From positions 1 through 64,000 of the forward strand of contig JAENRU010000467.1 in the NCBI GenBank assembly GCA_016647705.1: DNA of 64,000 nt. Direction: 5' to 3'. A program made the translations under genes and the position numbers. This DNA is from Eucommia ulmoides. Lineage: Eukaryota; Streptophyta; Magnoliopsida; Garryales; Eucommiaceae. Below are positions 11,163-53,234 of the stretch, piece after piece (the stretch's first letter is position 1; every line of letters starts with the position of its first letter). The notes beneath the pieces were generated by a model, which was not told where the DNA came from, searched no databases, and was given only the letters and a program-made list of their open reading frames with translations.

Positions 11163-11789
11163 TATATAGGTAAACGTACACTTTAAACCCTCTAACTATT
11201 GACACGTTTTTATGTAATCCAATAATTTTTTTTGTTTCAGTTTAAACTCTCTAAGTATGTACTTAGTTTTAAATGATCATTTTATTACATTTTCCATCCA
11301 ATCTAACATAAATGAGGGGTAAAATGATATTTTTCTAATTTTTTTTTTTTAATTTTTATTCTTTTCTTTTCTTTTTTTCTTTTTCTTTTTCACCTCTCTC
11401 TCTACCGCTCAACCCTTTCTCTCTCCTTCCCTCCCCACCGGTTCACCCCCTGTTACGGGGGTGAACCACCCCCATTTATAGTGGTTCACCCCCATAACAA
11501 AGGGTGAACCGACGGGGAAGGAGAGGAAGGGAGAGAGATGGTTGAGCGGTAGAGAGAATGAGAGGTAAAGAAGAAAAAGAAAAAAGAAAAAAGAAAAAAA
11601 AAAGGAAAAAAAATAGAAAAAGACTATTTTACCCCTCAATTTGTTAGATTGGATAAAAAAAATGTAACAGAAAAATCATTTAAAACTAAGTGCATACTTA
11701 GAGAGTTTAAATTGATATGAAAAAACTTATTGGATTACATAAAAATGTGTTAATAGTTAAAGAGTTTAAGATGTATTTTGCCCATATAT
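11163..11789. mobile_element. Foldback (hairpin) MITE, copy 1
   Basis: The two halves of this ~627-bp element are imperfect inverted repeats of each other. The left end runs 'taaacgtacactttaaaccc', then 'ctctaactattgacac'; the right end inverted runs 'gggcaaaatacatcttaaac', then 'tctttaactattaacac'. Both arms then carry 'ctctaagtat', 'acttagttttaaatgat' and a CT-rich (left) or GA-rich (right) tract. The centre (about 11440-11510) is built from GGTTCACCCCC inverted repeats. It sits in a TA-rich microsatellite. The terminal ~60 bp match the element at 52361-53234, so they are one family. It has no coding capacity. Confidence 0.85.
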
Positions 11790-12533
11790 ACATGTGTGTG
11801 TGTGTGTGTCATTATAGATATATAAAAGCAGAAGACATGTAACTAGAATGAAGTATGTACAAACTCTTCAATCTTATTGAATTTTATCAATAAACGGCTC
11901 AAATTGAAACTCTCCACCATCTCTTTAAACATTAGTGGGTGGCTCCAGTACTCTAAAATTGCCTTACAATCTTCGCCTTCACCTTCACTATCAAGCCCCC
12001 CCCCCCCCCCCCCTCCAACACCATTTCTCCTTCAATTTCTCTCTCCTTCTTCCCTCTCTAAAATCACCGCCACCACCAGCAATTCGCGATAGCGACGACG
12101 ATCCACAACGATCTCACTCACTCACTCTCAATCTTTCTCTTACTCTCACTTTCACAAAATCAATGCCAAGATTATTTCTCCTATACTAATATTTTAAACC
12201 CTTTCACAGTCGTTCTCACGATCCACCTCCCACAATTACTTCCATTTCTCACCCCCACCGCCTGCACAGATCGCGTCTCTCTCTCTCCCTTGCTTTTTAT
12301 CTTCCTCTCGCTCTCAGGTCTCCTTCTTGCAAGCCACCGCCGCCACTGCCAAACCATCGCCTTCTTCTTCTACAGGTACATTTATCTTCATCTCTTTCTC
12401 TTTCTATTCCACAGATACATTTATCTTCATCTCTTTTTCTTTCTATTCCACAAGTACGTTTCTCTTTCTCTTTCATTTTGGGTACTCAAGAAATTCTTCT
12501 GATATTGGTTAGTAATGCAATTTACTCAACTTA
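11790..12533 (+). other. Pyrimidine-rich stretch with microsatellites
   Basis: A GT run at about 11793-11808, a C run at about 11996-12013 and long CT-rich tracts dominate. The composition resembles a plant 5' leader, but no start codon with a believable frame follows. A 39-bp tandem repeat lies at 12377-12480 (separate entry). Confidence 0.45.
12377..12480 (+). repeat. 39-bp tandem repeat
   Basis: Two near-identical 39-bp units start at 12377 and 12416 ('tacatttatcttcatctc' and onward to 'ctattccaca'). A partial third unit starts at 12455. Each ends in a 3'-splice-site-like 'ttccacag'. Confidence 0.75.
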
Positions 12534-13679
12534 TCCATATATAAAGCCACGCGGGTTTGATCCTTTTGCCATATTTGCTTATTTATTCACTTAATTTTTA
12601 AACGAAACATCCAATATTTCTAATGGCACTTCATTTCTGGGGTCACCAACAGTTTGGTAAATTACCTATGAGAAAAGGAGAAAAAGACAAAAGGGCAGTT
12701 TTGTTCTTTCTCTTCCTCTTTCTATTTCTCTTCCTATTCTCTTTCTTTCTCTACCGATTTTTTCTCCTTCCACAGGTACAACTCTCGCCAATGTCCACTA
12801 CTAGATGTTTGAAAATGGTATTGCATAAGTCCATTTGTTTTCCTCTCGCAACAACTTAATTTAGGGGTTCTTTATTTTACTAATATATATCTCTCTTGAT
12901 TTAGGTTATTGGTTACTATTTATATATGGACATCTATTTTTGGGTTTTGCAGATCTGGATTTTTCGCCATCGAGAGTTATAGATCTTATTTGTAAATGAT
13001 TTTTTGAACTGGGTATCTTCTGTTGATATGTATATGGATTATCTCTATAGTTAGCTTTGGTTTATTTCTAAACTTTAAGGTTAAATTTGACAGTTCGTTG
13101 ATTTTTTTGAGGACACTGAAGATCGACAGCTTCGATGCATCATTGCATCACAGTAGCACGACAAATCTGAGGTGACTACGACCTTGAACCTCGCCAACGA
13201 CGATAATGCAGACCCTGAAGTAGGTATTTGTTCAAATCTAACAACGATTTGTCTACAACTCGGTTCCAATTGAGTTTGAGTTGGTCCGAATTGACTATAT
13301 CTGGCTGAAATTAATACCAAACTTATCGGTGTGTGATATTAGCTTGATCTTAGCTTAATCTATTTTTTTTCCTGAAAAACTTCTCAAATCCACCGTGAAA
13401 CAGGTGTTGACCTCTGAGAATTTCAGTACTTTTTGTTTGCATTTTTAATTTCAGATTAAGGTTTTCATTCTTGAATTTTAACTGTCTGAAACTCTGCTTA
13501 TCTGAATTTAGGTATGTTGAACTTCATCATTCAATTTCGTTTTTAGTTCATTACATTGATTGTTTGACTGAAACCCTAATTTTCTAATTGTATTATTTCA
13601 TATGCTTCTGTTTTTGGTCAAATCATTTCCTAATTGCATTATTTCTTTTGCTTCTATTCCTGTTTAAAAAAAAGTTTTA

Positions 13680-14476
13680 GGATGGTTCGGGATGAATATT
13701 TTGGATTCAAAGATTACTTCAAATCATTATGCAACTCAGTAGAAGACGATAAAGATTTCTATCTCCTTGGTGTTGATTTAGGTGGAGTTTGGTAACCGTT
13801 TCTGTTTCCATTCCAGCAGTGGGATGGGAATGGGATGGGATGGGATGGAAATTTTGTTTTCTTTTTGGAAGTAGAATCGCGTTTGGTAACGATAATTTTT
13901 TTTTTGTTTTGGGAAGGGAATTGTGTTTGGTAACGATTTTATCCTAAAATCTTCTTCTTCTTTTTTTTTTCCTATTTTGGCCTGACAGCGGTGGCGCCGT
14001 CGCTGGCCAGTCGGCGGTGGCCCCCCGCCGGCGATGGCCGGATGGCGGTGGCGCCGGCAATGACCGGACGGCGGTAGCGCCGAAGACGCCGGCCGGAAGA
14101 CAATGGCGCTGTCGCCGGCGACGGCCGGAAGTGGCCGGAAAATTTCCTGCCAGACGTGACCGGCGACGGTCGCCGGAGATGGCGACGGCGGACGGCGGTT
14201 ACGGTGACCGGCGGCGGCGGACAGTGGTCGGCCGGTTGGTGAATAGTGACCATGTGTTTTGGGAATGGAATGGGAATAATGAGAAACAACTTTTTTTTGT
14301 TTCTAATTTCTTAAGAAAAAAGTGGGCACAATTCTCAAATGGAAATGAAATGGAAACGGAAACAAAAATTACCAAACGCTATTCCCAAACAGAATTTCCA
14401 AAAATCTGGGAATGGAATGGGAATTTCTGGAATGGAAATGGTTACCAAACGGGGCCTTAGCTACTTACTTGGAGCT
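13680..14476 (+). pseudogene. Unidentified exon-like fragment split by a MITE
   Basis: Just after 'aaaaaaaagttttag' (a plausible 3' splice site) an ATG-led frame at 13682 reads MVRDEYFGFKDYF, then SVEDDKDFYLLG. It is interrupted at 13780 by a 676-bp Harbinger MITE. Beyond the MITE and its TTA duplication the same frame continues as ATYLEL to a 5' splice-site-like 'cag|gtac' near 14478. The acidic, hydrophobic peptide looks like real coding sequence rather than noise, but I do not recognise the family. It may be a host gene piece carried by the Helitron-like element. The MITE must spoil the exon unless it is spliced out. Confidence 0.4.
13781..14456. mobile_element. PIF/Harbinger (Tourist-like) MITE, TTA duplication
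   Basis: The ends are GGTGGAGTTTGGTAACC on the left and, inverted, GGCCCCGTTTGGTAACC on the right. The target TTA is repeated at 13778-13780 and 14457-14459. Such ends and a 3-bp TTA duplication are typical of PIF/Harbinger MITEs. The subterminal parts are rich in 'gggaatgggatgg' and 'ggaatggaa' repeats. The centre (about 13980-14250) is strikingly GC-rich, with GCCGGCGATGGCCGG-type repeats in both orientations. The long frames there arise from composition, and no transposase is present. Confidence 0.88.
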
Positions 14477-14730
14477 CAGGTACTTAATGTGACATTTGTT
14501 AATATTCCTAATTGTTTGTGTTATTGTTTATTTAATTGTTTATTAGTTGTTTATTTAGTTGTTTATTTAATTGTTTTGCTCCATAGTCCAGTTCGTTGCT
14601 CCTCCAATAATTTCTTCCAATCATATTCTTCTTAGTTTCTGATTTTTTTTTCATGTTATTATTTGTTTGTTTAATTCTTTATTCAATTTTTTTGTTATTA
14701 ATTATTTATTTAGTTTACTTCTATTATTAT

Positions 14731-14820
14731 TTAGGTTGTCTCCATGTGACCTGAAAGTTACGAGTTCGAGTCGTAGAAATAGCCTCTTGCAAAAGCAAGT
14801 TAAGGCTGCGTACAATAGAC
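14731..14820 (+). mobile_element. Au-type SINE fragment
   Basis: The stretch reads 'gttgtctccatgtgacc', then the tRNA B-box-like 'gagttcgagtcgt', 'gaaatagcctcttgca' and 'aaggctgcgtacaatagac'. This order matches the middle of the Au SINE family of flowering plants. Both the A-box end and the 3' end are missing, so it is a truncated copy. Confidence 0.8.
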
Positions 14821-15591
14821 TTAGCAATAAAGATTTGGCCAATAGAAATGAGCAGTGTAGTTGTTTGTTCGTGTGTGCATTGAGAAGTGGAGGAGACAAC
14901 TGAAAATTTGGAGTGCATGTCACCTGAACTCACCTAGACTCTTCTTCACAGTTTACTTCACGATGTGGAATTCCATCAGGTAAAATTTATGCTCTTTTTT
15001 CTCTAATTTAGTATGCATCGGCCACAAACAACACCATCACCTAAAGTTTGAAGTTGCATTTTCAATAATAATTAAGAAATTTAATCTTTTGATTTTTAAT
15101 TTCACATATGTGGCATACATTCAGAATATATTTAATATTTGCTTGTTTTTTTACTCTAAGTTTCTTCTAAAACTAATTGAGACATTATGAGAAGTAATTG
15201 TTGTTGAGTTCTTTCATTTTTGTTTGTCTAATTTTGTTAAGTTCGTTGACGTGTTGTCTAAAGTTGTTTATTGGGGCTAAACTACTACCTCATGAAGTGA
15301 ATGATCTGTCTTTTGTTTTGTGTTTCTGCCTCATGAAGTGAATGACTGGCCTTTATCCTTACTATTCTCACAATGAAGGTAAAAATCCATTTTTATTTTT
15401 ATTTCTTATTTCCTATTCTATTTATGTTTTATTTGATGATAATGAAGAGTTTATTTATTCAATTTGAATTTTAGTTATGTTTTTATTTTATATTTCCTTT
15501 CAAAAATAAAACCTACCTAATCAAAAATTATTTAAAAACAATAAAACGTATTTTTACTTCTAAAATCCGCGTTTGGCTCGGGCTAAAACTA

Positions 15592-15593
<2 letters not shown>

Positions 15594-15660
<67 letters not shown>
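15594..15660 (+). repeat. (TA)n(GA)n compound microsatellite
   Basis: A TA run is followed directly by a GA run. It lies immediately beyond the proposed Helitron 3' terminus. Confidence 0.95.
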
Positions 15661-15665
<5 letters not shown>

Positions 15666-16999
15666 ATAAGAGAAAAGGAAATGTGATCTGTAGAGAGAGA
15701 AAATGAGAGAAAATTATGGACCAAAAATTAGGTAAGTTTAAGTTTTATTTAGGAAGGGTAGTTGTGGAATTTTGATGTGAATTGATGGTTTTTTTTTTCA
15801 ATTTTTCTTTTATAAACGTGTTTTATTAAAAGAAACAATGGGCTTGTGGCCCATTCTTTTTTTCTTTTTCTTTTTTTTTTTAACTTAAAAATGAGGCTAA
15901 CATCAAATAATCCTTTAATTAATTTACTTATATTCTTTACATTGTGACACTACATACTCCAATACTTCATAAGTACTCCATTCAACTAAGAATTAGAAAA
16001 GTGGAAGCATGAATATTCATTTTATATTATTTTTCGATTCAAGAAATAGTCAATTATACTACATGCTTTTAAAATAGGGAGTGATGTCAAATTGATCATT
16101 CAAATTCAAATTTTCCAATAAAGAGGTTCGAATTCGAAATGTCATTGAAATGTCATTCTTACTCTTATTTAGTTTTTTATGGGCTAAAGACCCAAAAGTT
16201 CTCCGAGTTTTATCCAAATTGCTTGGTCCTCAAATTACAAATTTATATATTTTTGTAATCAAATTATAAATTTTGTTGCAAATAAGAACAAATCATGTAC
16301 TCCATAAAATAATTGGACAAAAAATAATATGGTTTTTTCTTGATTTAGTATGGATTTGGAATTAGAGGACTAAAAGACGTAGGTTTTAATTTAATTATTT
16401 AGTAGAGAATGTGATTAGAGCTAAAAAATGAAAATTCGTACTTTGAAAATCAAATTGAAATGTAAAATAAACTTGAAGGACCATTTGGACAAAACCCCTT
16501 TCCCAATAAAATCAAATTAATTTTTATTAATATTTTATATATTGGGAGTTACTTAGTTGTGAAGTTACATAGTCTAGTTTCTATTATAATAATTGTGTTG
16601 TTAGTGACTTAGTATGATAGCGAGAATAATTAAATTGTTCATGGCAGAGTCATGAGTTACTAGTTTGAAGCAACATATATACTTCATTTATTGTTTTCAT
16701 TATAAAATAAGTGTAAAGTGTTTTTAAGTTCTTGACATTCTCTTCTATACTTGTGATATACTTTTGTTCCAATGAAATCGTATCAACACCAGTTAGGCCC
16801 GAGGCAAGAATAAGTGAGAAAGATGTCAAACAACAATTTACTTTCATTTCAAATTTCATGAATTGCCAAAGATAACTATAGAAATTGATGTATTCACTGG
16901 AAAGCAATTTTTGGATCATAAGACTCATGAGAGGTGGTAGAGAAATGATACACAAAGTAGCAATATGAAGCCACCTTAAGTAAAAATCAATGGATGACA
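15661..16999. other. AT-rich spacer
   Basis: No terminal repeat or RNA gene was recognised. The minus-strand frame at 16650-17000 (116 codons) has no recognisable motif. The right end of this stretch leads into copia gag sequence. Confidence 0.5.
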
Positions 17000-18310
17000 T
17001 TATTGAATATGAAGTTACAGGATCAACGATCTCTTTTCATAATCCATCAATCTTTAGTTGATTTTATGTAGAAAAAAATGTTAATGCAACAAAATCCGAG
17101 CAAGCATGGGATATTCTTCCAGTCTTTCATAGTGAGTTAACAATTTCAAGAAAATTCCCTTTCAAAGGTTGAAAAGTGAATTTGAGTTGTTGCAAATGCA
17201 AAAATCCAAATTGGTGTTAGATTATATTTCAAGAGTTCTAACAGTTGTTATCAAATAAAGATAAATGGCGAGGAAACAAATGATGCCTAGCTAGTGTCCA
17301 AAATCCTATGTTCTTTACACTCCAAATTTGATTATGTTGTTGTTGCCATTGAAGAGTCTAAAGATTTAGACAAAATATTTGTGTTTGAACTCATGGGATC
17401 CTTATAATCTAACGAAGATAGAATTTAAAAGAATGCAAGATCCCTTGTAGTATAAACTCCAAACAAAACTTTCCATGAGAGAGAAGGAAGAAAAGTAATA
17501 AAAATAGAAAAAGGGTTGTTGACATGGATGAAGATGAAGAGAATGAAATAGTTCAATTTTACCTTACAATGAATAAAAGGGACACAATTAACACCATTCA
17601 AGAGGTGGTGTAAATCATAACTCAAAATTATATAGGAGAAGGTATGATAAATCACAAGTTGAATATTATAATTTTTATAAATTTAGCTATTATTTTTCAA
17701 ATTAAACAATTGAAGCTAACAACGTTGAGGAGAATGAAAATTTTGTTAAGAGAAAAATGAATATTTTGTCGAGCCTACCTTATTATTTTCTTCAAGGGAG
17801 AAAAAATGGTGCTAATAAGAGTAGGTACCTTTACACCAGCATTGGAAACCACGTTTGAAGAAACAAAAATTTATTTGTGGAGCTCGATGAATCGGTTAAT
17901 GAAAAAGTCCATTTGGAGACTCCTTTCAAATAATGATAAAAGGAAGAGGTAATGTTTTAATTCATTTGAAGGATGAAATGGATTGATTTATTTTTAATGT
18001 TTATTATGCGTTTAATATAAAAAAATAATATCTAGAGTGCAGAGAAACTTTTGGAAAAAGATTATAATATTTTTGTGGAAGATCATTGTCTTTCAACTCA
18101 TGATTCTTCATGAAAAATTGATGAATAAAGTGACAATGACAAATAATCGCATGTTTTTATTGAACATTTTTAGTGATGTGGCTCAATTTTTTATAACATG
18201 TTAAAGATCCCTCTTGGTTATGATATTTATGATTTGGGCACTTAAATTTTGGAGAACTACCATCATGTCTAGAACATTGAAGGTAAAATATTTGAAGGAA
18301 TAAGATATTA
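17000..18310 (+). mobile_element. Ty1/copia fossil, gag and protease region
   Basis: A gag (UBN2-type) segment is recognisable by '[15 protein letters not shown]' and 'ELMGSL' at about 17320-17410. It is followed by a degraded zinc-knuckle area, a protease-region block with 'NKNLFVELDESVNEKV' at about 17860-17915, and a faint pre-integrase region near 18130-18260. No LTR pair, RT or RNase H is visible. This is an old fossil with many breaks. Confidence 0.65.
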
Positions 18311-19173: not shown

Positions 19174-19176
19174 TTA

Positions 19177-19470
19177 GGTAGTGTTTGGTCACGCGTAATT
19201 TGATTGAATTGGAATTGTAATTCCTTGGCATTAGAATTCCACTATTTGTTAGCATGTTGGAATTCAATTGTAATTCTATGGTATTAGAATTCCAAGGTTT
19301 GGTCTATGGAATTAGAATTCCAACAATTATAATTCTATGGCATTAGAACTCCATTCTTTGGTAGCTTGTTGGAATTCAATTGTAATTCTGCTATATTAGA
19401 ATTCCATTGTTTGATATAAATATTACAGTTCATTTATAATTCCATGATAATTATAACTTCATCAATTCGT
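19177..19470 (+). mobile_element. PIF/Harbinger-like left end with EcoRI-site repeats
   Basis: After TTA (19174-19176) comes GGTAGTGTTTGGTCACGCG and then repeats of 'attagaattcca' and 'ttggaattcaattgtaattc' with a period near 55-60 bp. No matching right end lies nearby. The candidate partner is at 26690-26735, followed by TTA, with inverted end GGGTGTATTTGG and similar 'attccaattctaattcc' subterminal sequence. The two may be one older element split by later insertions, or two separate remnants. Confidence 0.5.
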
Positions 19471-20270: not shown

Positions 20271-20317
20271 AAATGATAGATGAAACCAGATTTAGAATCT
20301 TGCTCTGATTACCAAAT

Positions 20318-23440: not shown

Positions 23441-23446
23441 ACCAAA

Positions 23447-28180: not shown

Positions 28181-30985
28181 TTTAGGTTATTGGGAATAGA
28201 TTTATTTGTATGATTTAAAATAGAAAATAGTGGTGGGGCTATGGTAAAAAATTGACATCGGCCAATTATGCTATTTAGAAATCTAGAATGATGGATATTA
28301 TTTATTGTAAGGATTTGTATTTGCCTTTAAAAGGCAATACAGGTAAACCAAGCGATAAAAATAATTAACAATGAGATATAAAGCATAGGAAAACAATTTG
28401 TTACATTCGTCAATGGATTGATCAGAGTGGGTACCAATCTGTTATTAATGAAACCAAAATAGATGAATTGTGAAAAAAAAAAAAAAAAAGTCTTTGTACG
28501 AGAGGAAAACTGGATTGAATAAGACTAATTTGATTAAGATAATTGCTCACTTAACCTATAGGGATGGGCAAAATATAGTTGATCACATAAATAATTTTAA
28601 AGACCTTATTAATCAGTTGATTACTATAGAACTTATTTTAGAATATGAAGTGCAGTCATTACTACTTCTCAACACATTACCTGACAGCTAGAAACGCTCA
28701 GAATATCACTCAGTAATTCGTCGCCAGATGAAAAGTTGACGATGGATACGTTCAAAGACAGTCTCATTAATGAAGAAGTAAGGAGGAAAGCGCAAAGCTC
28801 ATTCTTAGAGGCGCAGACACTGGTTACTGAAAACCAAGAAAGACGAAGGAGAAGCAAAAGTAGGAATCCTCGTAATAATAGGTGGTTTGACAAATTAAGA
28901 GGTAGATCGAAAGGTAAAAAGAACTTCAAGTGCTTTGACTGCAACAAGTCAGGACATATACTCCAAGATTGTAGATTCTTGAAAAGGGAACAATCTAAAG
29001 ACCAAACTGTCGAGCAAGAAGAAGATGAGAAGACTAATGCAGTTGTTGTTGATGAAGATATTGTGACTCTTTATGAATATGATTGAGTTAACCTTGCATT
29101 CCAGGGTTATAATTGGGTGATTGATTCAAGTGCATCATTTCATGTTACTTTTCGTGGTGATTTATTCTCGTCTAACATTAGCAGTGGCTTTGGCTATATA
29201 AAAATGGAGAATGACGGTGCATCCAAGATCATTAGCATGGGAAACATTTATCTAAAAACCAGTATCAACTACAAATTGGTACTTAAAGATGTCGGGCATG
29301 TTCTTGATATTCAGCTCAATTTGATCTCCGCTGAAAAGCTAGATCATGAAGGTCACAGTAGTCATTTCGGTGAAGGAAAATACAAACTCACCAAAGGTTC
29401 TTTGGTGTTGGTCAGAGGTAGTAAACTAAGCAGCTTGTATATGATGTAAGCAAGATTGGATAAATGACAAGTCAATGCAGTTGAGGATTCTTCTATGGAA
29501 TTGTGGCATCTACGACTAGGTCACTTAAGTGAAAAAGACCTTCACATGCTCGTCATAAAATAACTCCTGATAAAAGTAAAAAGTACATCTTTTAAAACTT
29601 GCATGTTTTGTTTTACTGGTATACAATATAGAGTTGCATTTCAAAATTTTAATTCATCTAGGAGACGTCATCATTTGGATTTTGTGCATACAGATGTTTG
29701 TTTCATGAAAGATAAAACACTTCGTGGTGCTTCATATTTTGTTACATTTATTGATGATTTTTCTCTAAAAGTGCTTGTCTATTCTTTGAAAACTAAAGAC
29801 CATGTATTAGAGGTGTTCAAGCATTTCCACACCAAAGTTGAAAGAGAAAAGAAAAGAAAAGAAAAAAAAAAAAGCCAGCTCAGGTATGTGTGTGTAGATA
29901 AAAGAGTTGAATACAAATGCCCGTTTGAAGAATACTACAGAAAATATGACACTAGACTTAAGAAAAGTGTACCCAAGACTCTTCAACTTAATGGAGTTGC
30001 CTAGCAAATGAACCGAACCACTCATGAACGAATCAAGTGTATGCTTTCTAATGCAAAGTTGCGTAAATCATTTTGGGGTATGGCAATGAAGACTGCAGTT
30101 AAGTTGATCAATTTGTCTCCATCAATTTCTTTGGATGACGATACCTCAGAAAGTGTAGGGACCAAAAAATACATCTCCTACAAGCATTTGAGGGTATTTG
30201 GATGTTGGACATTTGTTCATGTTCCAAAGAATGAGAGGTCCAAACTTGATGACAAGACAAAACAATGTATATTTTTGGGTTATGGGCATGAGGAATTTGG
30301 CTATGAATTGTAGGATCCAGTTGATAGGAAAGTGATTCCTAGCAGAGACGTGATATTCCATGAAGATCAGTCTATCGAGGATGTTGAGAAATGTGTAAAA
30401 CTAAAATCCTTTGTTGAGTATCTAGTCAACATAGATCCAGTTCTAGCACCCACGACAGATTCACCAGAAGAGCAGTCACGTGAGACTATCAATGAAGCAC
30501 TTGTCGGTGATGAAATAGTGCGCGAGCAGCCACTTCTACCTCCTCCAGTTAATGTCCAGTTGAGAAGATCCAACAAGGATCGAAGGACTTCTACAAAATA
30601 CCAGTCTGATGAATATGTGATGCTTACAGATGAGAGAGAGCCAAAATGCTATGAAGAAGCCGTGTCGAGTGAAAATAACAATGAGTGAAGCAAAGTCATG
30701 AAAGGAAAGATGAAGTCTTTGCATGTGAACTACACTTATGACTTGGTACAACTTCCTAAATGCAATAGAAGTTTAAAGAATAAATGGGTTCACAATTTTA
30801 AAATTAAAGACAATAACTCAAGTCCAGATACCATTGGATTCGCGATGTGTTAGATATGAAGTTGCTACACACAATTGAAAATGGTTCAGATGTGATTACA
30901 AAAGTTCTTTTGGAACAGAAACTTGAGAGTTGTAGAGAGTGAACAGATCTCTTGCATTTCTCAACATGAGTTGGAGGGAGAGATT

Positions 30986-38350: not shown

Positions 38351-39095
38351 GGTCACAATCTCATCATCCTCGATGGCCTCAAGGGGTTTCATCTACCACA
38401 TGATAACACGCGGATAATCACAGCCCTCGTCAACTAATTTACAATTGGGAAGATTCATATAGATGGGGACAGTTCTGTCGATATATGGTCTAATAAGTAG
38501 GACTTTTCAATAGGCCGGGCCTGACCAGTTCGGAAAACAAGATGCACGGTTGGACCCGAGCCCGGGCCTATTAGGCTTTTACTAGTCAACGAGTCATGGA
38601 TTGGAGGTGCCTGAGCCCGCCCAATAGATCCAAATCTTCGTGTACTCTGGCTCCGTACTGGGCCTTGAAGCTCGCATTGCAGGTCTTTTTTATTTTGAAT
38701 TTTAATTGGTTACAATGCCCGATGCACAAAATTAAGAGTTATTTTGAATGTCAAAATCAAAATAGTAATTGTCAAGTACATTGTACACACAAGGCTACTT
38801 AAATTAGTCTTTTACTCTTTCAAGACTCTAGTCCCTAACTTAATAGTTTTTAAGGTATTAAACATTTGTTTGTTTTTTGTCAGAAATATTTATCTCCAAT
38901 TAAATTTATTTTGTACTTTAAAATTATGTTTGTCTTTAAACCTTTTTTTTTTCAAAAATATTTCTCTTTAATTAAACTTATTTTAAACTTTTAAGTTATA
39001 TTTTTTATTTTAAAAATTCTTATAATTTTTATAATATTAAAAAATAAATTAAATTATTTTATCTAATAAAATTCAAATAGTGATATTTCTATTAA
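38351..39095. other. Spacer with palindrome and local duplication
   Basis: CCGAGCCCGGGCC (about 38557) and 'ggccgggcc' (about 38513) form short GC palindromes. A ~65-bp unit with 'aaatatttctctttaatta' is duplicated around 38884-39005. No gene was recognised. Confidence 0.4.
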
Positions 39096-40978
39096 GGATA
39101 TTTGTCGCTTTTCTCCCCTGTCTTTGTGCTATTAACCCGATATCTCCCTTGATATTTACTAAATACCAATCACCCTTTTTGACTGATTTTTATGTAAACA
39201 AACATAAATGTCCTTATCTTATTTAATACAATAATATTTATTTATTTTTTGAAATTTCACTAGTACCCTTATTAAAAAAAAAACTTTTACTCTTAATTTT
39301 TTTTTAACATTACATTAACGCCCAACCCCACCTCACCCACTGCCACCGCCACCATCGTCGTCAGTCTTCTTCTTCTTTATTCCCTCTCTCTCTCTCTCAG
39401 ATTCAGGTTGCATCTGTGTTGTGGCGCGTAGATCAGCATTGGATCTGTGCGCCGAAACACAGATCTGTGCTCCCTTATAAATCCAATTCAAACCCAAGTT
39501 TTTTCACCATTCAACAATCAAAAATCCAAGTTCAAGATTTTCAATTGTTTCGCAATTTCAACTTCCGGTCAAGAGATAAAAAGAAAAAATTAGCACTGTC
39601 GAAAAAATTGGATCGTCGTGGCCAGCATCGACCTCATCGAGGCACTCAAAGACCAGGGTTTCTGCAGATAAAACTACGCCCTGAGGTTCCTATAATAGCA
39701 AGTGATAAACAATTTGGCTTTTCATTAACGATCCCGAAGACTCGCTGCTCCGTTGAATCCTCTAATCACATCAAATGAGCAATGAAAGAGAAATGGGACT
39801 GAGAGAGAATTTGATGATAAAAGTGATAGACTTCAGTTGTTGTGGACCCAATATTGTTAACGTCGGTATTCTTATTCTTCCTCCTATATCTCTCTCCCTC
39901 CAAAATTTGGACTTGGATATGTGCTTCGACTCATAGATTAGTGCCAAATCTTTGCGTCGGAGCGCAGATCCAGTGAGGATTGAGAGAAAGGGAGAAAAGT
40001 AAAAAGACTGGCGGGATTGAGGACACTGTACTTTTTGTGTTAAAAAAGAAAATGATTTTAAAAAGATATAAAAAAAAAAATTAAAATAGGGATGTTAGTG
40101 TAAAAAAGGTAAAGTAGGAAAATAAATATATAAAAAAAATTACAGGGATATTTAAATTTTTTAATTTTTAATATTTTTATTATTCTTAAATGTGATGAAG
40201 CCAAAATTTGGTTCGTCAGATATGGGATTTTGGGATTAAGAATTAGGTGATTCTCCTATCTTAGTTTTCTACAAAATAATGCATCGCGGATAGACCTGTC
40301 AACGTTGCACCTCCGGTGTGAGAATCGGTAGATTTTTCTAAATTGGACAGAGTGTTGGCTAGGAAAAATAGTGCATACCTGACTAGACCCCATTTGGCTC
40401 ATATTTATAGACAATGAAAGACTTGTTTGGCAAGTCTTCCCTGAATCTTGGCCATTATCATTAATGTGACGAATTTAGTAGGATATGGAGTAATAAGTCG
40501 TTACTTAAAGAGTAATAACGACTTTGTCCTTAACAGGTAAGGGACGTTATACTTCTCCCGAGCAGGAATCACAGCAAAAATAAGTATCAGGACTCTGCGC
40601 CTTGATCGGGATATAGGTCCCAGGTTGATGGCCCGCCTTCTCTCGCCTAGTGATGTTCGGAGGTGTCTTGCTCGGGGAACATGGTCGGGTGAATATTCTC
40701 TTCTCGAGAGTAGCAACATTCTTGTGTGTTGTAGACTTCGTGGATGCATGTGCATGGCATATGCTTAGCAAAAACGTGGATCCAACTCGAATTCTCATTT
40801 GTCAAAATGGTTAAGGGTAAAGTTGTCATTATAATAACATTTCAGTAAAAAAAATTCCTATAGAGGAACTAAGTGGTCTTTGACAAAAAAAGATAAGGGG
40901 TTGACTGGTATTTAGTTAATGACATAGGAGATTTATTATTAATAACAAAATGGCAGGGGAGGTAAATGAAAAATACCC
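39096..40978. mobile_element. Foldback element, copy 3, interrupted by a solo LTR
   Basis: The left arm runs GGATATTTGTCGC, 'ctcccctgtc', 'tactaaatacca'. The right arm inverted runs GGGTATTTTTCAT, 'ctcccctgcc', 'aactaaatacca'. Matching continues inward with AT-rich and CT/GA-rich tracts toward a centre with 'gatctgtgcgccg' and 'acacagatctgtgc' repeats. The right arm is interrupted by a solo LTR (40193-40804). Without it the element is about 1.3 kb. Design matches the other two foldback elements, but the terminal sequence differs. The frame at 39416-39778 lies in the core and is unlikely to be a gene. Confidence 0.7.
40193..40804 (+). repeat. Solo LTR with AAATG target duplication
   Basis: The 612-bp unit begins TGATGAAGCC and ends ATTTGTCA. 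Perfect 5-bp AAATG copies lie at 40188-40192 and 40805-40809. A TATA-like 'catatttatagac' lies at about 40409. It interrupts the right arm of a foldback element, which independently confirms the limits. No internal region is present, so it is a solo LTR of an unassigned LTR retrotransposon. The intact duplication suggests it is not very old. Confidence 0.85.
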
Positions 40979-41156
40979 TTTTATTAATAGTAAAACAATT
41001 ACATCATTATTCATTAAAATTCACGAGGTAGTAATTAATAAATGTGGATAAGTAATTGCATTATTAAAAAATATTTACATCCCAACTCGGTTGGCACCTA
41101 CACATTGGACAATCATTTGCATTGTTATCAATAATGTTGGCGCGCACACACGCGCG

Positions 41157-44299: not shown

Positions 44300-46430
44300 A
44301 AAACAATATGAAGTCCCATTGACTGAACCCCTGCATCAATTACCTGAATAGGACAGTAGCCTAGAAAACAAATCATCCTAATCCGGTCGACTGATAGGAA
44401 GCTTTAATCAACCAATTCTAACAGTAGACCTTGATCTGAAACAAATACATGAAATTGGTAAATTGAATAAATGAATAGTCGATTAATTTGGAAAGTAGGC
44501 TCAAAAGTATTGATCGGTAAACCGATCAGTGGACAAATTGGGGAAGAATGCGTTTTACAAAGGCTGCACATGAACATAGGTAGATCGAATAAGGATTCGG
44601 TCCACCAATTATCAAAGTTTGTCTTGATATCTTGAACGAAATTCTAATTCAAACTTGAATTGAACACCAAATTGATTCAAACATGTTTCTAATGGTAAAT
44701 ATTTTATCTTTCAATTGAATCAATTATTCAAACTAAAAGATAATATCAATGGGTAAATCGTGAAAAATAAAGTTACCATTTTCTAAACCCTAAGTTGTAG
44801 CCCTTTTCGTAGCTACTTGTCTCCTGATGGATAGTTGCTCAAATTGGAAAAATCGGAATCTTGCAATGAGCATGTATTCATCAGATTTAATAGTCCTAAA
44901 GTTCAACTCGTTAATTACAAAGAATTCATTCTAATATCAAACTCATTTGCTCAAATCTAAAGCCTATAAATACCTTTTCATAAAACCTTTGAAAATAAGA
45001 GAAGAATCAATGAAATTAACATGCTATACATATTTTTAGAGTTTAATTTTAAAGCCTACAAATAACTTTTCATAAATCCAGAGAAAATAAGAGAAGATTC
45101 AACGAAATTAACACACTATACATATTTTTAGAGTCTAATTCTTGTTTGTTAAACACTCTTAGTACTACATTGAGATAAATAGTGTTGTAGAAAGACAATA
45201 TTTACTAAAAGAGTGGGGATTTGAGACAAACACTATAGTGTGACTTTATAAGAGAAATCTTCAAATCCAATTAGGGCTATCCTAGGGGAATTCTAGCTAA
45301 GATCAATTCAATTCAGGTATGATCTACTAGACTCATCCTAAACTTTATTGTTAGTTCGTTATGTACTTGTTTATACATTAATTGTGCTTATTTGTCTTTT
45401 TGTGGAATAATTTGTGAATATACTTGCATCTAGATCTATTTGTATTGATCACATCTTTAATTCTACATGTTATATATATTGTTGACTTAGTGATAATATG
45501 ATTTGCGATTTTATATCAAGCATTATAAGAGAAATTTTGCATGCACATTCAAATCTATCATTTTGAGAAAACCAAATGAACATTTATTAGAATCAAAGTG
45601 TTTTCTAATAAGATCAAGAAATTGTCAGATTTGGTAAATAAGACACAGGAAGAACTGGCACCGTGAGCGAGATTAAGTTACTCATCAAAATTTTAAATCC
45701 TAATTGGATGTTTTCACTGATTTTTCAAAGAGCTTTTTAATATATTGAAAATAGTCATACCTTCATATTGTAAAGTATCATAAATATTGAATATTGCACT
45801 TAAATTTATTAATTTGATTCTTTATATCACATGGACTTAATTGATTATGTCTTGTACGTGATTATTTGTGTGCTTGCTCTTAAATATCATATTTATTGTA
45901 TATACACTTCTAAAAGTAGTGTATCGATTCATAGGTGATTGATGGAAGCTCCGAGGGTTAGCTCATTAAAACTAATAAAATTAAACCTGTTAGGGTACAA
46001 ACTGTAGCTTAAAGCAAGGTGTTAATTTAAGTGAGAGAATTGTGACAAGGTATAAGTGTAATTTACCTTTCATGAGTGTATGAAAAGGTATAAGTACAAT
46101 TTACTTTTGAGTGTAACAATTTAGTCTTCACCGGCGAAGAAGATCAAAAAAATTGAGAATTAAAAATCTCCAAAAGAGTTTGGAGGAGTAGACGTAGACA
46201 AAGAGGGACTTTGCATGAACTACTATTAATCGTTGTGTTCGTACTATCTCTATCATTATCTTTGTTTGTATGCTTGTGATTTAATTCTTTGCTTGTATAT
46301 TATGTTGTATTTTTTTTAACACTTGTTCTTAATTGTCGTTTAAGTGTGCTTTGAAAAGTAAATAAAAAAATATATAAAAAAAAAAACTAATAAGCTATTT
46401 GTACTATCCAATTCATCCACATGGATGAAT
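44300..46430 (+). repeat. 3' LTR of the Sirevirus-type fossil
   Basis: The right end pairs with the 5' LTR. The left part holds TCGGTYRACCGA-like motifs (44370-44620) and corresponds in layout to the LTR at 6275-8521. A ~110-bp internal duplication ('agcctataaatac', 'agagaagaatcaa') lies at about 44955-45155. The exact left limit is uncertain. Confidence 0.65.
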
Positions 46431-47899
46431 GCCCCCGTTTCTAGAAATTGATGATACCACACAGATGTTAGTGTTATAAGAGAGAATTAATATTGCTTCA
46501 GACTGAACTCATTTTGTTCTTCCTTTTTTTAATCTCTTTATATTGTATTGAGCCAAAGTGCCTACCTTTTGTGCCTATTTTCATTTTGATTAATAAAAAC
46601 TATTTCCTTTATGGCATTTTTTTTTTTTTTTTTTTGTTATTTGACTTGCACATTTTGTATATTGGTTGTCATGACGTTTGTGAAAAACAATTCTTCACAG
46701 AGCCGAGTTGATGCGGTTCCAATTAGAATATATGTTACGCACTTTGTTTTGAACCGGTACTGACACTTGAAAATATGTTCATCCGAACGGGCTAAAATTG
46801 GTGTATTGAATTGGATGCTTACTCGTCCTCACTTAAAATGATTTTTCCTTGGTTTAATTTTCATTAGGGATTTTTGAAAAATTTTGGCATTTTCTTTCCG
46901 TCCTATGTCAGCACATTCATTTCAAATGAAGTGACCATATTTTTATTCCCAAAAGTGTGTAAACACCACAATCTATCCCGTCACCAACCCATTATAGTAT
47001 ATAGGTCTCATGTTGCATCTTTTTAATTTAAAAAATAGAAATAAACACAAAAATATATAATTAGCTTTATGATTAGTTGGAAAAATTTATTTCAATTTTG
47101 GTAAGCCTTTATGTGAAACAAATCTGACTTTCAATGGAATTTTAAAAAAGTTTTGACTTAATTGAAAATTAAAAAATTGTGATGATTACAGGGTATCATT
47201 TCGATTCCAGAATTTGCATGAGTGTATTAGTATTAATTTTATAGGGATGGGGCATATATTAGAAGTCCAATTTGATTTTTTGAAAGTCGGCCGTCTTATG
47301 TGTTAATTTCTCCAACTTTCAAAATCAATAGGGGCTCTTCTTGATTTAATTAATTTGTATATAAAATTAATTAAAACAAAATTTACAAATATTTTAATTT
47401 TGATAATCAATTAATTTTCTTAGAGCTATACTTGAATTATGAAATTCAATTGCATTATTTATTGTAAAAAATTGGAATTTAGAATTAAATTATACTTCAA
47501 TAAGGAGTTAATTGATTTTCTATAAATTAATCACTAATTTTTGTTGGTTTTGGAAATAATTATAATTTTATCATCAATGATATCTCATACTGACCAATTC
47601 AAAGATGACATGTGGCACTGTATTGATTTATTCATTTCAAAACTCTATGGAGATCTTAACTACTTTATAGGTAAGCTATTTATCATTTTTTAGAATGTAA
47701 TTTGGGGTAATAATGAATTCTAAACCCTAAAAATAGAAGTGTAACAAGTGCCCAATCCACAAATAGTTCAAGGACAAAAACAAATATGAGGTTTTCACTT
47801 AGGAAACACAATAATAAATACATTAAAAAGGGATATTATTGATATTTAAAATTGGTTAATATCTCGAGTTGGTTTAGCCAGAATCCACGTGTAATTTTC
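46431..47899. other. AT-rich spacer
   Basis: Contains a T run at about 46618-46635 and short frames only. No terminal repeats or coding family were recognised. Confidence 0.55.
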
Positions 47900-49130
47900 C
47901 TACTAAGATGAGGTGTTGAGTTTAGAGTTTAGGGTGGGGTCCTTAAGCACTATGTGGTTAGCGGTCAATCTTTTTGAAATTTGGGTTGAAGTCCAGAGTG
48001 TGTACCTGCACAAAGACCTACCAGGGTTGTGCCCGGTGAAGTCTCTCTAATGTGAAAGTAAGAGCTCGAGAGAAAAGGCTTTTGTATGCTTCTATTAGAC
48101 ATATGAGCATTACCTGGGGCATTCAATGCCTGAGTATTTATAGGAAATGAGAACAACTAGCATCGTAGAATTAAGACCCTGAGCGCGATTAATTAAGGTA
48201 ACTCAACGCGTAGTAATTCGGAGGGCGTGTGGGGAGATTAGACCATTAGGATTAGCTTTCTGGCCCATATGAGAAGCCCATAGATTGATCCAAATGATTT
48301 AAGGAGACTAGGCCTAGCCTACAGGTACAGCGGGGTTTACCCTTGTGGATTAGTTTCTTTGGAAGAGTGTCATGGTGAAAAGCTCATCAGCTTAGAGCGC
48401 TGGGAGGAAAATGGAATGTTGAATACGTCCAAGGATTCCCACTACCAGGGCCTTCAAGTAGTGTTAGAACGGAAGCTCGAAAGACAAACGAAAGCACAAG
48501 TGGCTTGCCTTGGGTGTTTACCAAGCGAGGGCAAGATGTTTGAACAGAGATCAGACAAACGAAAATAGGTCATCTCTTTACTGATTACCGACCAGAGGCA
48601 GCGCGGATGATCAAAGCTTGGCCAAAATCCCAAAGGGCCTTCCATTAGTAACTTCTGAGCTGAGGCAGTACGGTGGGGCGCAGCTTAGCCAAAACACATA
48701 GGGCTTTCTCTTTGGTAACTTCTGAGAAAAGGCAGCATGGCAAGACGCAACTTGGACAAAACCAAAAGGGCCTTTCCTTTGGTAACCGTCAGGCAGAGGC
48801 AACACGGCATATATAACTCAGCTAAAACCCAAAGGGCCTTCCTTTTGGTAACCGTCGAGCAAAGGAAGCTCTGCTGGACGGAAGTCAGATGAATTCACTG
48901 ACTTGTCGCTGATAGGACACATGAAACTTGAGGGGTCTTCCAGTTGGAACTTGCCGAGCTCAGGCAGCTCAGCTAATCGGAGGTCGGCCAGTTGTGCTTA
49001 TCTGACAAGGGGGTTCCTTCTCTTATTATGTGATGAGATGGCCGTTATGGAGGGAGCCCATCTGCCAAATGTGAATTGTCCTTAGCCAGGTGAACATCAA
49101 CCAAAATATCTAACATCAGATACAAATGAA
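47900..49130 (-). mobile_element. Tat-type Ty3/gypsy fragment: tandem array plus 3' LTR (minus strand)
   Basis: On the minus strand the LTR-like part (about 48550 down to 47900) has a strong TATA box (CCTATAAATACTC, about 48139 down to 48127). Downstream come 'ctctcgagctctta', 'gagagacttcacc' and 'tgtgcaggtac', the usual order of Tat LTRs. To its right lies a ~66-bp tandem array, which in Tat elements occupies the region before the 3' LTR. No coding part is visible. It is an old, partial fossil. Confidence 0.55.
48550..48905 (-). repeat. ~66-bp tandem repeat array
   Basis: Units with 'ccaaagggccttcc', 'ttggtaac' and 'gaggcagcacgg' recur with spacings of 66, 67 and 66 bp (marker positions about 48632, 48698, 48765, 48831). 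A degraded unit lies on each side. About five to six units are recognisable. Confidence 0.85.
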
Positions 49131-49449
49131 GACCCCTGAAACATATATAGATAGTCATCATTTATTGAATTGCGGGAGGACTTTTTACGAGAATAGTTTC
49201 ATGGGTAACAATTCTTCTAATTTCCAACTATAATTGTAAAGTATAAAATATCCTAAAATACCTTTAATTCCTTCAATGATTTCAAGATTTGAAGATAAAA
49301 ATGAAGGTTCGATTTCAAAGAATAAACACGTTTAAAAAGGTGTCTTAATTAAACTACTCTCTCCTTCAAATTGTATTTCAATCCTCACATTTTTCTTACA
49401 TTTTTTGGCCTTTTATTTTTCTGTTCTCCTCTAACATATAGTTTCAAGA

Positions 49450-49929
49450 ACCCTGATGGCAGTGGTTCTCACCATGCCTCATACACATGCCTAATAATGG
49501 GCAAAAATGGATTCGTTTAGGAAATGTGGATTAATGGGCTTAATTTGATAGGCCCAACACACAAAAAGGAAAAAGAACATGAATCTAAATTGGGATGGCC
49601 CATGGAAGATCTGGAATGATCATGCCCAAGCATACAAGCATACAAACGGGCTCACCATAACTTAAATATAGAGGATATCCAAGAGAACGTTAGGGTAGTT
49701 AAGATCATGAGGAAATTCTTGGTGATCAGGTATTCTTACTCTATAAATATTGTAAGTTTTAGGCAAAAATAGTGATGCATTGATATATCATTAAAATGAT
49801 TGATTAACTTATTCTCACTCCGGAGAATATTTAGCTGATATCACACCTGTATCCCAAGTATTAATCCTAAGTACTGCTAGTGTTATTCAGGGCTTTAGGA
49901 GTTGGAGTAGCTGATGAAATTTGGCAGCA
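49450..49929 (+). repeat. 5' LTR of the Tat element
   Basis: Ends ..TTGGCAGCA five bases before the primer-binding site. TATA-like 'ctctataaatattg' lies at about 49739-49752. The left limit is estimated, since no second LTR is available for comparison. Confidence 0.6.
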
Positions 49930-49934
49930 TTATT

Positions 49935-49952
49935 TGGCGCCGTCTGTGGGAA
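49935..49952 (+). promoter_or_regulatory. Primer-binding site of the Tat element
   Basis: TGGCGCCGTCTGTGGGAA is the junction sequence found just after the 5' LTR in plant Tat elements. Its first part is complementary to the 3' end of a plant tRNA, probably tRNA-Asp. Confidence 0.8.
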
Positions 49953-51549
49953 ACAAACAGAAGGTTATAACTATGCCACCAGTGAGATCAGGACACGAGA
50001 TCGCTAATGAAGTACCGTATGAAAATATAGCAATGGTAGGAGATTGAACCACTAATTTTGTCACTCGTAATCTGCAAATTGGAGAGCTACGGGATAAAGT
50101 GGTTTAACTGAAAGAAGGTGCACAAGTGCAAAAGGAGCAACCAAATGAGCGAAAGTCGGAACTGCAAGATCTGCTCCGTATCTCGAGAATAGAAGAGGAT
50201 CGAGTCTCAATCCAAAGTACAAAAAAGGTCCACCTCAGCATAATGAATCACGAGGAAGAATCTATCAATTTAGATTGGAAAGCAGCAAGAGACGAGACAA
50301 AGTTCACAAAAAAAAATGAATTGGAAGAGTTGTTTGGCATAACGGAGCCCTATTTGCTAAAGCGATCATGAAAAGACCTTACCCAAGAAAGTTTGATTTT
50401 GCCAAGTTAGATAAGTATGATAGAAATTTGGATCCAACGGATCATCTCAAACACTTCATGCATATGATGGCGATATACGAAACAAGAGACTCAATTTTGT
50501 GTCGTGCATTTGCCACAACGTTCAAGAGCTTGACTTTGGATTGGTTTTGCTCACTTCCACCATGGTCAATTTGTTCATTTGTAGAACTGGAAAAATGGTT
50601 CATCAACTGATTCATCACTTGTCAGGCGTTGAAGATAGGAGAGAAATACTTGCTCACGCTGAAGCAGGATAAAGGAAAGTCACTTTGGTAGTATGTGACT
50701 CAATTCAATGAGGAGATGACCTCCATTGAAGAATGTGGAACCAACTTGATCATAAACACTTTCCGTACTAGGCTACGGCCAGGGCGTTTTCAATCTTCCT
50801 TCCACTACAAGAAAAAAGATTTTTTATCACAATTAAAAACAGTGATAAAAATATTTTTATCACAGTTTCTGCCCTCAAACTGACAATGATCGATAGAGGA
50901 GTGATTAAAATTAGGATACTTATTATCACGTTTATAAACCATGATAGATGAGTCATAAAAAACTGTGACAGTCACCAAAATACAATATGGATTACTTATT
51001 TATAATCTCGCTTATTTAAAAAAAAAATGAGATGGTTAGTCCATCTAATGTCTTAGTTTTCAAATGTGATTAAAATGATCATTTATATATGATCTAAAAA
51101 AATGCGATTATTTTAACAATATCAATCTCAATTTTGTATTAAATTGAGATGTTTACTCTCTTTTCTATCACATTTAAAAACTGTGATTGTTTCTCATTTC
51201 TATATTAAAAAAAATCCGACTATTTTATAAAAAAAAATTCTATAAATAATTAAATAAAAAATAAATTTGATAATTCTAAAATAATTAAAATATTGATGAC
51301 ATAAGAATTCTACATCAACATAAAAAACACAAGTAGTATTGGTTTTCAATACAAGAATCATAAACTTGAATTTCTATAAGTATAAATGTCTAAAATGCAA
51401 AATTTATATCAAGTATAAAGAAAATAAAAAACAAATAAAATCTTGCAATGGTAGACCATATCGATGATAAAAGTGAATTTTCAATCCTCAAATAAATCAT
51501 ATAGTTGGCAAAATAATTTTTTAAGAGGCAACATATAACAGTAGGGATG

Positions 51550-51830
51550 AAATTTTTTTGCAGCAAAACAACAAAACATTTTTTTCAAAAGCAACGTATA
51601 ACGATAGAGATGAAATGTTTTTTGTTGAAAGCAGCAAAAACAACTTTGTTGTTTCACTGTTTTTAGAGCAAAACAATGTTATTTTGCTGCAAAAGCAGCA
51701 AAATAGTGCTGTGTTTTGTTGTTTTTGCAGTAAAATAGCAACGGCTTTGATGTTTTTGCAGCAAAACAAATGACAGCAGATGGATAGTACAACAGTGCTC
51801 TCACAAATGGACAGCAAAACATTGCTCTCA
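51550..51830. repeat. GCAGCAAAA repeat cluster inside the CACTA element
   Basis: 'gcagcaaaac' and its inverse 'ttttgctgc' recur many times, including the palindrome TTTTGCTGCAAAAGCAGCAA around 51681-51700. Two direct copies of a 'gatgaaat.ttttt' unit lie about 60 bp apart. Frames open on both strands because of the composition. Confidence 0.65.
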
Positions 51831-52360
51831 CATATAGTTCAACAACTGATAGTTCAAACTTCTCACAAATGAATTATATATTCAAGAAAATGACATACCT
51901 TTTCCACAATCACATTTATTTTGTAATTTATGTAATCCATTCAATTCTCAATTCGTCTAGTTCCTCTTCAGAATAGGCATTCTTCCCAGTAAACTACACA
52001 ATCCATTCAAATAAGTTAGAGAATAATATTTTCGAGAGATGCAAAGTGCAAAATAAATGAAAAATAGACAACTTATCTCACATTTCCTCGAGGAATGATG
52101 CTCTTATCTCTTAAAATATCTTTCATGAATCTCATTACATAGATACCAGATTTCATAGCAGAAGATTGCCAAGGACACTGAATATAACTGGATTTGATGA
52201 GACCTAGGGTAGAAACTATGATATTAAATAGATACATATTTATATTTTATATAAATATATGTTGAAGAACATGTTTATCACCTGAATGCACTTTCAAGTT
52301 GGAGTTTTTTTTGTCCTTCTTTTGGTCATTTCTAATGTTCTAAGACCACTACATGAAGTT

Positions 52361-52654
52361 TAGGAAAAATCACATTTTAAACCCTCTAACTATTGACACA
52401 TTTCTATGTGGTCCAACAAGTTTGTGGCGTTTCAGTTTAAACCCTCTAGGTTGTACGCGGTTTTAATTGGTCCTTCTGTCAATTTTTTCATCCAAACTAA
52501 CAGAAAGACCAATCATGTGCAATGCACATGAATTTTTTAAGGGTATTATAGTCTTTTTTACATTATTTAAAGGTTTTTTTAGTTTTTGTAAAGTTTTCTT
52601 TTTTCTTTATGTTTCTTCTTTTTCTTTTTTCTTCTCTTTTTCTATCTTCTTCTT

Positions 52655-52710
<56 letters not shown>

Positions 52711-53234
52711 CCCACTAGAAATAGATGGTGGGTGTCCATCCTCTGTTTCTTCTCCACGAAAAACAGAGGGTAGACACCCTATGTTTAAAATAGAGAGTGT
52801 CCACCCTCAGTTTAAAAAGAGGGCATCCAGCCTCTGTTTTAAATGGAGGGTACGGAGACCCTCTATTTTAAATAGAGGGCATCCACCATCTATTACCAGA
52901 AATAAAGGGTATCGACCCTCTATTTCTGGAGTAGAAAAAACAGAGGGTGGACACCTCCACCCTCAATTTTTGGTGGAGACAGAGAGAGAGGGGAAGGAGA
53001 AGAGAGAATAAGAAGAACGAAAAAATAAAAAAAAAATAAAAACAAACTATAATACCCTTAAAACATCATGTGCATTGTATATAATTGGTCCTTCTGTTAG
53101 TTTGGATGAAAAAACTAACAAAATGACCAATTGAAGTTGCCTACATACCTAGAGGATTTAAACGAACATGCCACAAGTTTTTTAGACTACATGGAATTTG
53201 TCAATAATTAGAGGGTTTAAAAGGTAATTTTTCC
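52361..53234. mobile_element. Foldback (hairpin) MITE, copy 2
   Basis: The left end runs TAGGAAAAATCACATTTTAA, then 'accctctaactattgacac'. The right end inverted runs TAGGAAAAATTACCTTTTAA, then 'accctctaattattgacaa'. Both arms share 'ttggtccttctgt' and 'tagtttggatgaaaaa' blocks and a CT-rich or GA-rich tract. The core (about 52717-52985) is a series of AAATAGAGGGTGTCCACC-like inverted units. The outer ~60 bp match the foldback MITE at 11163-11789. It is non-coding and sits in an intron-like or broken part of the CACTA gene. Confidence 0.88.
52660..52712 (+). repeat. (CT)n microsatellite
   Basis: A long TC run in the left arm of the foldback MITE. The right arm carries a shorter GA counterpart near 52980. 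Confidence 0.95.

Follow-up and report, generated by a model that had tools for sequence, protein, structure and literature searches.

Foldback Mutator-like elements with a palindromic unit array at the hairpin tip in Eucommia ulmoides

Do foldback elements that share their ends but look unrelated in their centres carry different hairpin cores, or variants of a single core? This question is raised by a stretch of 64,000 nucleotides of Eucommia ulmoides (contig JAENRU010000467.1, positions 1 to 64,000; C36:1-64000 in our numbering), which we analysed as a whole and refer to as the window. A sequence-only reading of it had noted three foldback elements, here called E1, E2 and E3, and had proposed a modular class in which the hairpin core is exchanged or regrown. 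The window belongs to a genome of 946,670,599 bases in 391 contigs (947 Mb), has a GC content of 33% by base counts and looks like plant nuclear DNA. The best explanation of our results as a whole, to which we assign a probability of roughly 0.7, is that E1 and E2 are members of one abundant family of non-autonomous foldback Mutator-like elements (MULEs), with a core array of palindromic units as a trait of the family.

Limits and ends of E1 and E2

Alignment of the terminal inverted repeats (TIRs), together with flanking repeats, gave limits for all three elements and confirmed that they exist. E1 spans 11169-11783 (615 bp) and E2 spans 52363-53234 (872 bp), neither element nor its core being assigned a strand. 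By arm alignment and profile, the left TIRs lie on the plus strand at 11169-11314 (E1) and 52363-52506 (E2), and the right TIRs at 11642-11783 and 53092-53234. The 9-bp flanking repeats match at 8 of 9 positions in E1 (11160-11168 and 11784-11792), but within a TA microsatellite, at 7 of 9 in E2 (52354-52362 and 53235-53243) and at 8 of 9 in E3 (39087-39095 and 40979-40987); among random 9-mer pairs drawn from the window, 0.33% agree at 7 or more of the 9 positions and 0.04% at 8. The TIRs of E1, E2 and E3 all begin with GG, and these GG-type TIRs with near-matching 9-bp flanking repeats pointed to non-autonomous MULEs.

The motif TTTAAACCCTCTAACTATTGACA, exact in the left TIRs of E1 and E2 and present with one mismatch in the right TIR of E2, had three window matches at up to three mismatches and none in 100 shuffles. 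Blastn of E1 against E2 returned three matches of 136, 143 and 257 bp at 79%, 78% and 68% identity (E = 3e-27, 2e-23 and 1e-14), and the arm alignment score was reached by 0 of 200 shuffles in each of the four arm pairs. The ends are therefore shared, as the sequence-only reading had held: judged by sequence likeness, the TIRs of about 140 bp are homologous and E1 and E2 are of one family. E1 is self-complementary along 599 bp at 81%, as are the arms and core of E2. The CT-rich left and GA-rich right arms described earlier were also recovered: E1, E2 and E3 each have an inner left arm rich in pyrimidines and an inner right arm rich in purines (85-91%). The pyrimidine tract of E2 (52592-52719, plus strand) contains a (TC)n repeat at 52659-52710 and has a purine counterpart at 52971-53042. 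An inverted-repeat scan of the whole window (at least 45 bases, within 6 kb), with a tool that may overlook repeats with insertions or deletions, found 11 pairs, all in or at E1, E2 and E3.

The family across the genome

At up to three mismatches, the TIR motif had 4803 matches in the genome (2370 forward, 2433 reverse), against 3 for a reversed control. Copies were sampled from exact motif matches on contigs C1-C6 only; 100 exact places were listed and 76 were fetched, as 72 stretches. Facing TIRs, sought with a profile of the four window TIRs, could be paired in 39 of the 72 stretches. The 33 unpaired stretches were dropped before elements were counted, and the 39 paired ones together with E1 and E2 give the 41 elements described here.

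These elements span 440 to 5385 bp; 25 have a core under 650 bp and 16 are longer members. Left and right TIRs have a median identity of 0.85 (0.73-0.97) over about 145 bp, and the consensus of the 82 arms runs from the TIR (consensus GGgaAAAaTACATTTTAAACCC) through a T-rich stretch into a pyrimidine tract. Scored as the best over ±3 bases at each end, the 9-bp flanking repeats are perfect in 16 of the 41 elements, match at 8 of 9 in 14 and score lower in 11, while a shifted-flank control of 164 cells (40 without sequence) gave no perfect case and four at 8 of 9. The family combines long TIRs with a 9-bp target-site duplication (8-11 allowed for MULEs), has the long inverted repeats and inner repeated domain of foldback elements, and is short, non-autonomous and of high copy number like miniature inverted-repeat transposable elements (MITEs), though 16 of the 41 members are longer. 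By the features of its termini, it is a MULE family. L036, the longest copy, gave no transposase match in the five of its six frames that were read and was rejected as an autonomous partner, its only match being to TCP, below cut-off (22.3 against 23 bits). Searches of viral_contigs and genome_contigs with the TIR pattern found no match elsewhere, E2 had no match in plasmids, and the exact TIR and unit strings had no relevant match in open-licence literature.

Some individual copies deserve mention. L080 carries, at 2379-3438, the family TIR three times in the same orientation, at intervals of about 365 bp (2.9 copies by Tandem Repeats Finder), which by analogy may be a short tandem array derived from one element arm, like satellite birth from foldback elements. 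The cores of L051 and L052 have 120 bp in common at 96%, in inverse orientation, and their opposite arms pair on the TIR tree (97 and 99); over this core stretch they are the most alike sampled pair, and they may be recent, oppositely oriented copies. The interiors of L011 and L067 have about 0.9 kb in common at 86%; on this likeness, the two could be a sub-lineage amplified together with a non-array centre.

Core arrays of palindromic units

The inverted units read earlier in each centre are present. The core of E1 (11440-11516) has four half-sites of the GGTTCACCCCC type in alternating orientation, found at up to two mismatches, and the core of E2 (52712-52972) is an array of palindromic units of about 27 bp, with eight AAATAGAGGGTGTCC-like units at up to three mismatches. 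Over the whole window, GGTTCACCCCC units number 7 against 5.0 expected, which is not above chance, and AAATAGAGGGTGTCC-like units 10 against 1.5. The half-site is CACCCCCTGTTA in E1 and CACCCTCTGTTT in E2, where CACCCTCTGTTT is paired with AAACAGAGGGTG; the E1-type unit is CACCCCCTGTTACGGGGGTG and the E2-type unit CACCCTCTGTTTAAACAGAGGGTG. Reading the cores, we found alternating palindromic units of the E1 kind, such as CACCCCCTGTTACGGGGGTG, in many shorter ones, and E2-like or intermediate units in L012, L024, L025 and L070. Six elements carry an E2-like label, set by the analyst from unit letters and by eye.

A 12-base half-site profile, trained on the 39 other elements with E1 and E2 left out, recovered 5 half-sites in E1 (maximum 4 in 30 shuffles) and 11 in E2 (shuffle maximum 3). 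Defining an alternating pair as neighbouring half-sites of opposite orientation within 32 bases, we counted 151 pairs in 34 of the 41 elements, with two or more in 25; reversed sequence gave one pair in one element and shuffles about 0.5. When separate halves of the elements were used for training and for testing, pairs were present in 29 of the 39 elements, 114 in total, compared with 2 in reversed and 0.8 in shuffled sequence. Half-sites number 0 to 22 per element, and 200 of 275 neighbouring half-sites are oppositely oriented. By a looser count, a single strong half-site occurs inside 29 of the 39 paired loci and, among the 33 unpaired loci, near the TIR in 11 and in the far flank in 5. Clustering of the cores by blastn lumped 36 to 38 elements and was not used, because the links ran partly via T-rich and CT-rich stretches.

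The sequence-only reading had named discrete core classes among genome copies as its support and a single core in all copies as its refutation; what we found is largely one core, since 34 of the 41 elements hold one unit type in alternating arrays. The centre does vary between copies, as it had claimed. Its proposal that cores are exchanged or regrown survives in part: the spread in half-site number and the alternation of orientation partly fit regrowth, while the shared unit arrays and the position of the E2-like arms in the same set as E1 give no support to exchange for E1 and E2.

Relation of the E1 and E2 cores

A profile trained without the E2-like elements found 4 half-sites in E2, a number reached by 0 of 200 shuffles (which lose the repeat structure), and alternating pairs in the intermediates L012 (2) and L024 (1), with 0 of 100 shuffles reaching each. 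The best 14-mer match between the two cores is 12 of 14. We searched the genome with the E2 core alone and obtained 11 rows, two in E2 itself and nine at seven other places; six of the seven places were fetched, and a family TIR lay within the stretch of about 1 kb in five of them, L084 being without one. On the TIR tree, which has few columns and leaves 55 of 79 inner branches open, all 12 arms of the six E2-like elements belong to a single supported set, which comprises 33 arms and includes E1. For the left arm of E1, the closest arm is one of L012 (88%), an element with E2-like units.

The arrays in 34 of the 41 elements, the intermediates and the return of the same TIRs by the E2-core search suggest that the core is mostly inherited with the arms; it seems to vary in unit number and sometimes to flank other sequence. 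From these comparisons, the cores of E1 and E2 are likely two variants of one array, homologous rather than exchanged modules. The earlier view that the centres are unrelated therefore gives way: they do not align directly, yet the genome copies show both as arrays of palindromic units with linked variants.

Several results weigh against this reading. Aligned directly, the E1 and E2 cores scored 18, which 114 of 500 shuffles reached (85 of 500 in another comparison), so the two centres do indeed fail to align significantly when compared with each other. With the profile trained without E2-like elements, the best single E2 site was reached by 4 of 200 shuffles and no alternating pair was found in E2, L025, L070 or L028; of the two split-trained profiles, one found 0 pairs in E2 and the other 6. 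Seven of the 41 elements (L011, L015, L023, L037, L070, L073 and L076) have no pair, a pair lies no more than 900 bases from the TIR in only 9 of the 33 unpaired loci (reversed control 0), and strong half-sites also occur in the far flanks of 12 of the 39 paired loci. Unit likeness is 0.625 within and 0.611 between elements (permuted 0.612, sd 0.0045, maximum 0.627), a difference so small that we rejected strong homogenisation within elements. Finally, no transposase or autonomous copy of the family was found, no genome-wide transposase search having been made.

Hairpin tips and captured sequence

A short copy is one long palindrome, in which the TIR, the T-rich stretch and the pyrimidine tract lead to the alternating unit array at the hairpin tip. 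The half-cores of short elements fold alone, with z below -2 in 33 of 50 (one not computable); values are -4.3 and -2.9 in E1 and -6.2 and -9.3 in E2. Single TIRs gave z of 0.9 to -0.8 in E1 and E3 and of -2.2 and -3.0 in E2.

Four of the 16 long members (L028, L039, L040 and L041) have half-sites near both inner ends and a middle poor in units. Ten open reading frames (ORFs) of long members were tested: a UBA domain is present in one of L037, and one of L011 gave a ribosomal L25 match below cut-off. The L037 ORF (476-967; C3:13558300-13561900) matches UBA_At5g58720 (PF24767, E = 3.6e-20) and lies between family TIRs, of which the right one starts only at profile position 12, with low-complexity flanks; it is likely a host gene captured by a family member. 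A fragment of L085 that looked P450-like by eye found no confirmation in Pfam, PDB sequences or NCBIfam.

Half-sites flanking unit-poor middles, together with the L037 ORF, suggest that elements can take up sequence within the array. Among the capture models for TIR elements set out in the part of PMC8277862 consulted are the filling of gaps at internal breaks, which secondary structure may induce, and template switching at stalled forks; by analogy, such processes might act in the E1/E2 family. The palindromic array at the hairpin tip may itself be the site of acquisition, with tip breaks or stalled forks repaired by template switching, a tentative idea that we rate as rather unlikely. Template switching at the tip would both multiply units and insert host sequence, leaving captured fragments flanked by array halves.

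Element E3

E3 (39096-40978, no strand assigned, 1883 bp) has a right end set one base outside the limit used in the arm comparison. Its arms share 82 bp at 73% identity and gave no match to those of E1 and E2 (eight pairs, score reached by 23 to 172 of 200 shuffles). The sequence-only reading had given it the same architecture with other ends and a third core; the other ends and a similar layout hold, but E3 as a third core of the E1/E2 family was ruled out because the TIRs differ and the arms are unrelated.

Within E3, a gene fragment of DUF3774 (wound-induced protein) with an in-frame stop lies at 39621-39713 on the plus strand (PF12609, E = 3.3e-6, 28.5 bits against a cut-off of 27.3, stops read as X). 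E3 thus has a host gene fragment between MULE TIRs and is therefore Pack-MULE-like; we found no literature linking DUF3774 to Pack-MULEs. A self-palindromic module without assigned strand sits at the inner end of the left arm (39412-39464), with a counterpart at about 39900-39975. These modules fold at -31.7 against -18.9 and -23.6 against -13.2 in shuffles, both beyond the lowest of 200 shuffles. The pairing partner of the inner left arm lies at 39890-40158 (score 101; shuffles reach at most 66), so that the right arm holds, in addition, about 0.7 kb of other sequence. A solo long terminal repeat (LTR) insert at 40193-40804 with a 5-bp repeat was rejected: the arm alignment, scoring 93 with the insert, rose to no more than 107 without it, and control joins elsewhere scored up to 115. 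E3 is thus a MULE of another TIR family that resembles E1 and E2 in layout and has captured a fragment of a host gene.

Other features of the window

Just left of E1, 10738-11133 contains a tandem repeat of about 31 bp with CCAGATCTGGCC, followed by purine-rich stretches; it resembles half of another foldback element, whose partner end was not found. A second MULE beginning near 9978, suspected by eye, had no right end in three stretches. Around E1, Pfam gave no match in two plus-strand frames of 1-15000 or in three minus frames of 8-18 kb, and around E2 none in six frames of 48-58 kb. Retroelement remnants occupy 28685-30688 on the plus strand, with zinc knuckle, Pol_BBD, rve and SH3_retrovirus in separate frames; Pol_BBD matched at E = 1.1e-15 and the other three fell below cut-off. 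A minisatellite at 61142-61700 can be read as 161-bp units (3.5 copies) or 79-bp units (5.7 copies).

Discussion

Under the explanation that we prefer, a MULE transposase would presumably act on the TIRs and mobilise family copies in trans. The array would be a family trait whose units are gained, lost and altered by drift, with template switching or foldback repair at the hairpin tip as the most likely mechanism, and some longer copies would hold other sequence between the array halves, as in the four of 16 noted above.

Compatible with this explanation, and possible in our view at somewhat less than even odds, hairpin transcripts might feed 21-24-nt small RNAs that help silence the family. 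The strong hairpin potential claimed earlier was borne out in predicted folds, at -341.6 kcal/mol for E1 against -125.5 in five shuffles and -404.9 against -193.1 for E2; the whole-element fold of E3 is much weaker relative to shuffles (-517.5 against -453.7 kcal/mol). In rice, according to the part of PMC4858842 consulted, 24-nt small RNAs have been mapped both to the TIRs and to the internal regions of MULEs. Between arms, transitions exceed transversions in E1 (23 to 10) and E2 (23 to 12), as deamination of methylated cytosine would give, but the E3 arms have no such excess (10 to 12). The window also has no Rfam match at gathering thresholds, and small RNAs would leave the variety of the cores unexplained.

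A second alternative, which we consider unlikely, is that the inner array is kept through binding of transposase or another protein, as proposed for the inner repeats of Galileo, where extra transposase binding sites are described (PMC4079207, seen in part). Such binding would fit the presence of the unit in most of the elements sampled, amid drift of the sequence around it; paired units are nevertheless missing in 7 of 41, and there are fixed positions at which E1-like half-sites differ from E2-like ones. Least probable is that one TIR family repeatedly swaps its core, E1 and E2 having acquired palindromic cores independently: the non-significant direct comparison, the elements without paired units, the several unit-type changes needed on the TIR tree (9 for the E2-like label, against a mean of 11.4 in shuffles, of which 12 of 500 needed as few) and a tomato TIR family with several internal regions (PMC3310237, seen in part) lend it something, against which stand the common half-site, the intermediate units, the same arm position, a core-only search returning the same TIRs and the limitation of E2-like units to one TIR set among the sampled elements.

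The preferred explanation, a single foldback MULE family, has relatives in known systems, which we compared through parts of each cited source. MuTAnT of Medicago truncatula is a foldback MULE whose long TIRs consist of several similar segments and which has 9-bp target repeats (PMC4486113); it resembles the E1/E2 family as a short, non-autonomous element with segmented long TIRs, foldback structure and 9-bp target repeats. Its TIR differs by eye (mask GGGGTTTGCTAGAACA against consensus GGgaAAAaTACATTTTAAACCC), it is mostly 200-300 bp long where our family reaches from 440 to 5385 bp, and it favours TA microsatellites, whereas here TA repeats flank E1 and few other copies. Neither the same TIR nor insertion into TA repeats was found, most family flanks being AT-rich without TA repeats. 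FARE elements of Arabidopsis, foldback elements with long palindromic repeats classed as MULEs (PMC4486113), are alike in foldback form and palindromic repeats, a likeness of description rather than sequence.

The Tm1 Mutator/Foldback elements of root-knot nematodes share composite TIRs, mostly 9-bp target repeats and MITE-like members with our family, and one TIR family there has several classes of interior (PMC3169594); their inner repeats are tandem motifs of 13-15 bp in the TIR, unlike the alternating palindromic array here. In tomato, MULEs and Pack-MULEs have 9 TIR families and 24 internal-region types in one size class, with gene fragments between TIRs, and the text consulted describes no palindromic minisatellite core (PMC3310237). 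Tetris and Galileo of Drosophila likewise have a flanking domain, an inner repeat domain and a variable middle, and Tetris repeats seeded satellite arrays; Tetris has direct repeats of about 220 bp in place of palindromic units (PMC4079207), and Galileo is in the P superfamily, unlike this MULE family.

Foldback MULEs are thus already known; less usual is that most of the copies sampled here bear a palindromic minisatellite at the tip of the hairpin. This amounts to a trap for annotation, as copies of a foldback MULE may look unrelated in the centre while holding one fast-changing palindromic array. Because the family is large and includes copies with and without sequence between the array halves, it could serve to study how MULEs come to acquire sequence and whether hairpin tips drive that acquisition. 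If they do, the family would be a natural record of tip-driven capture.

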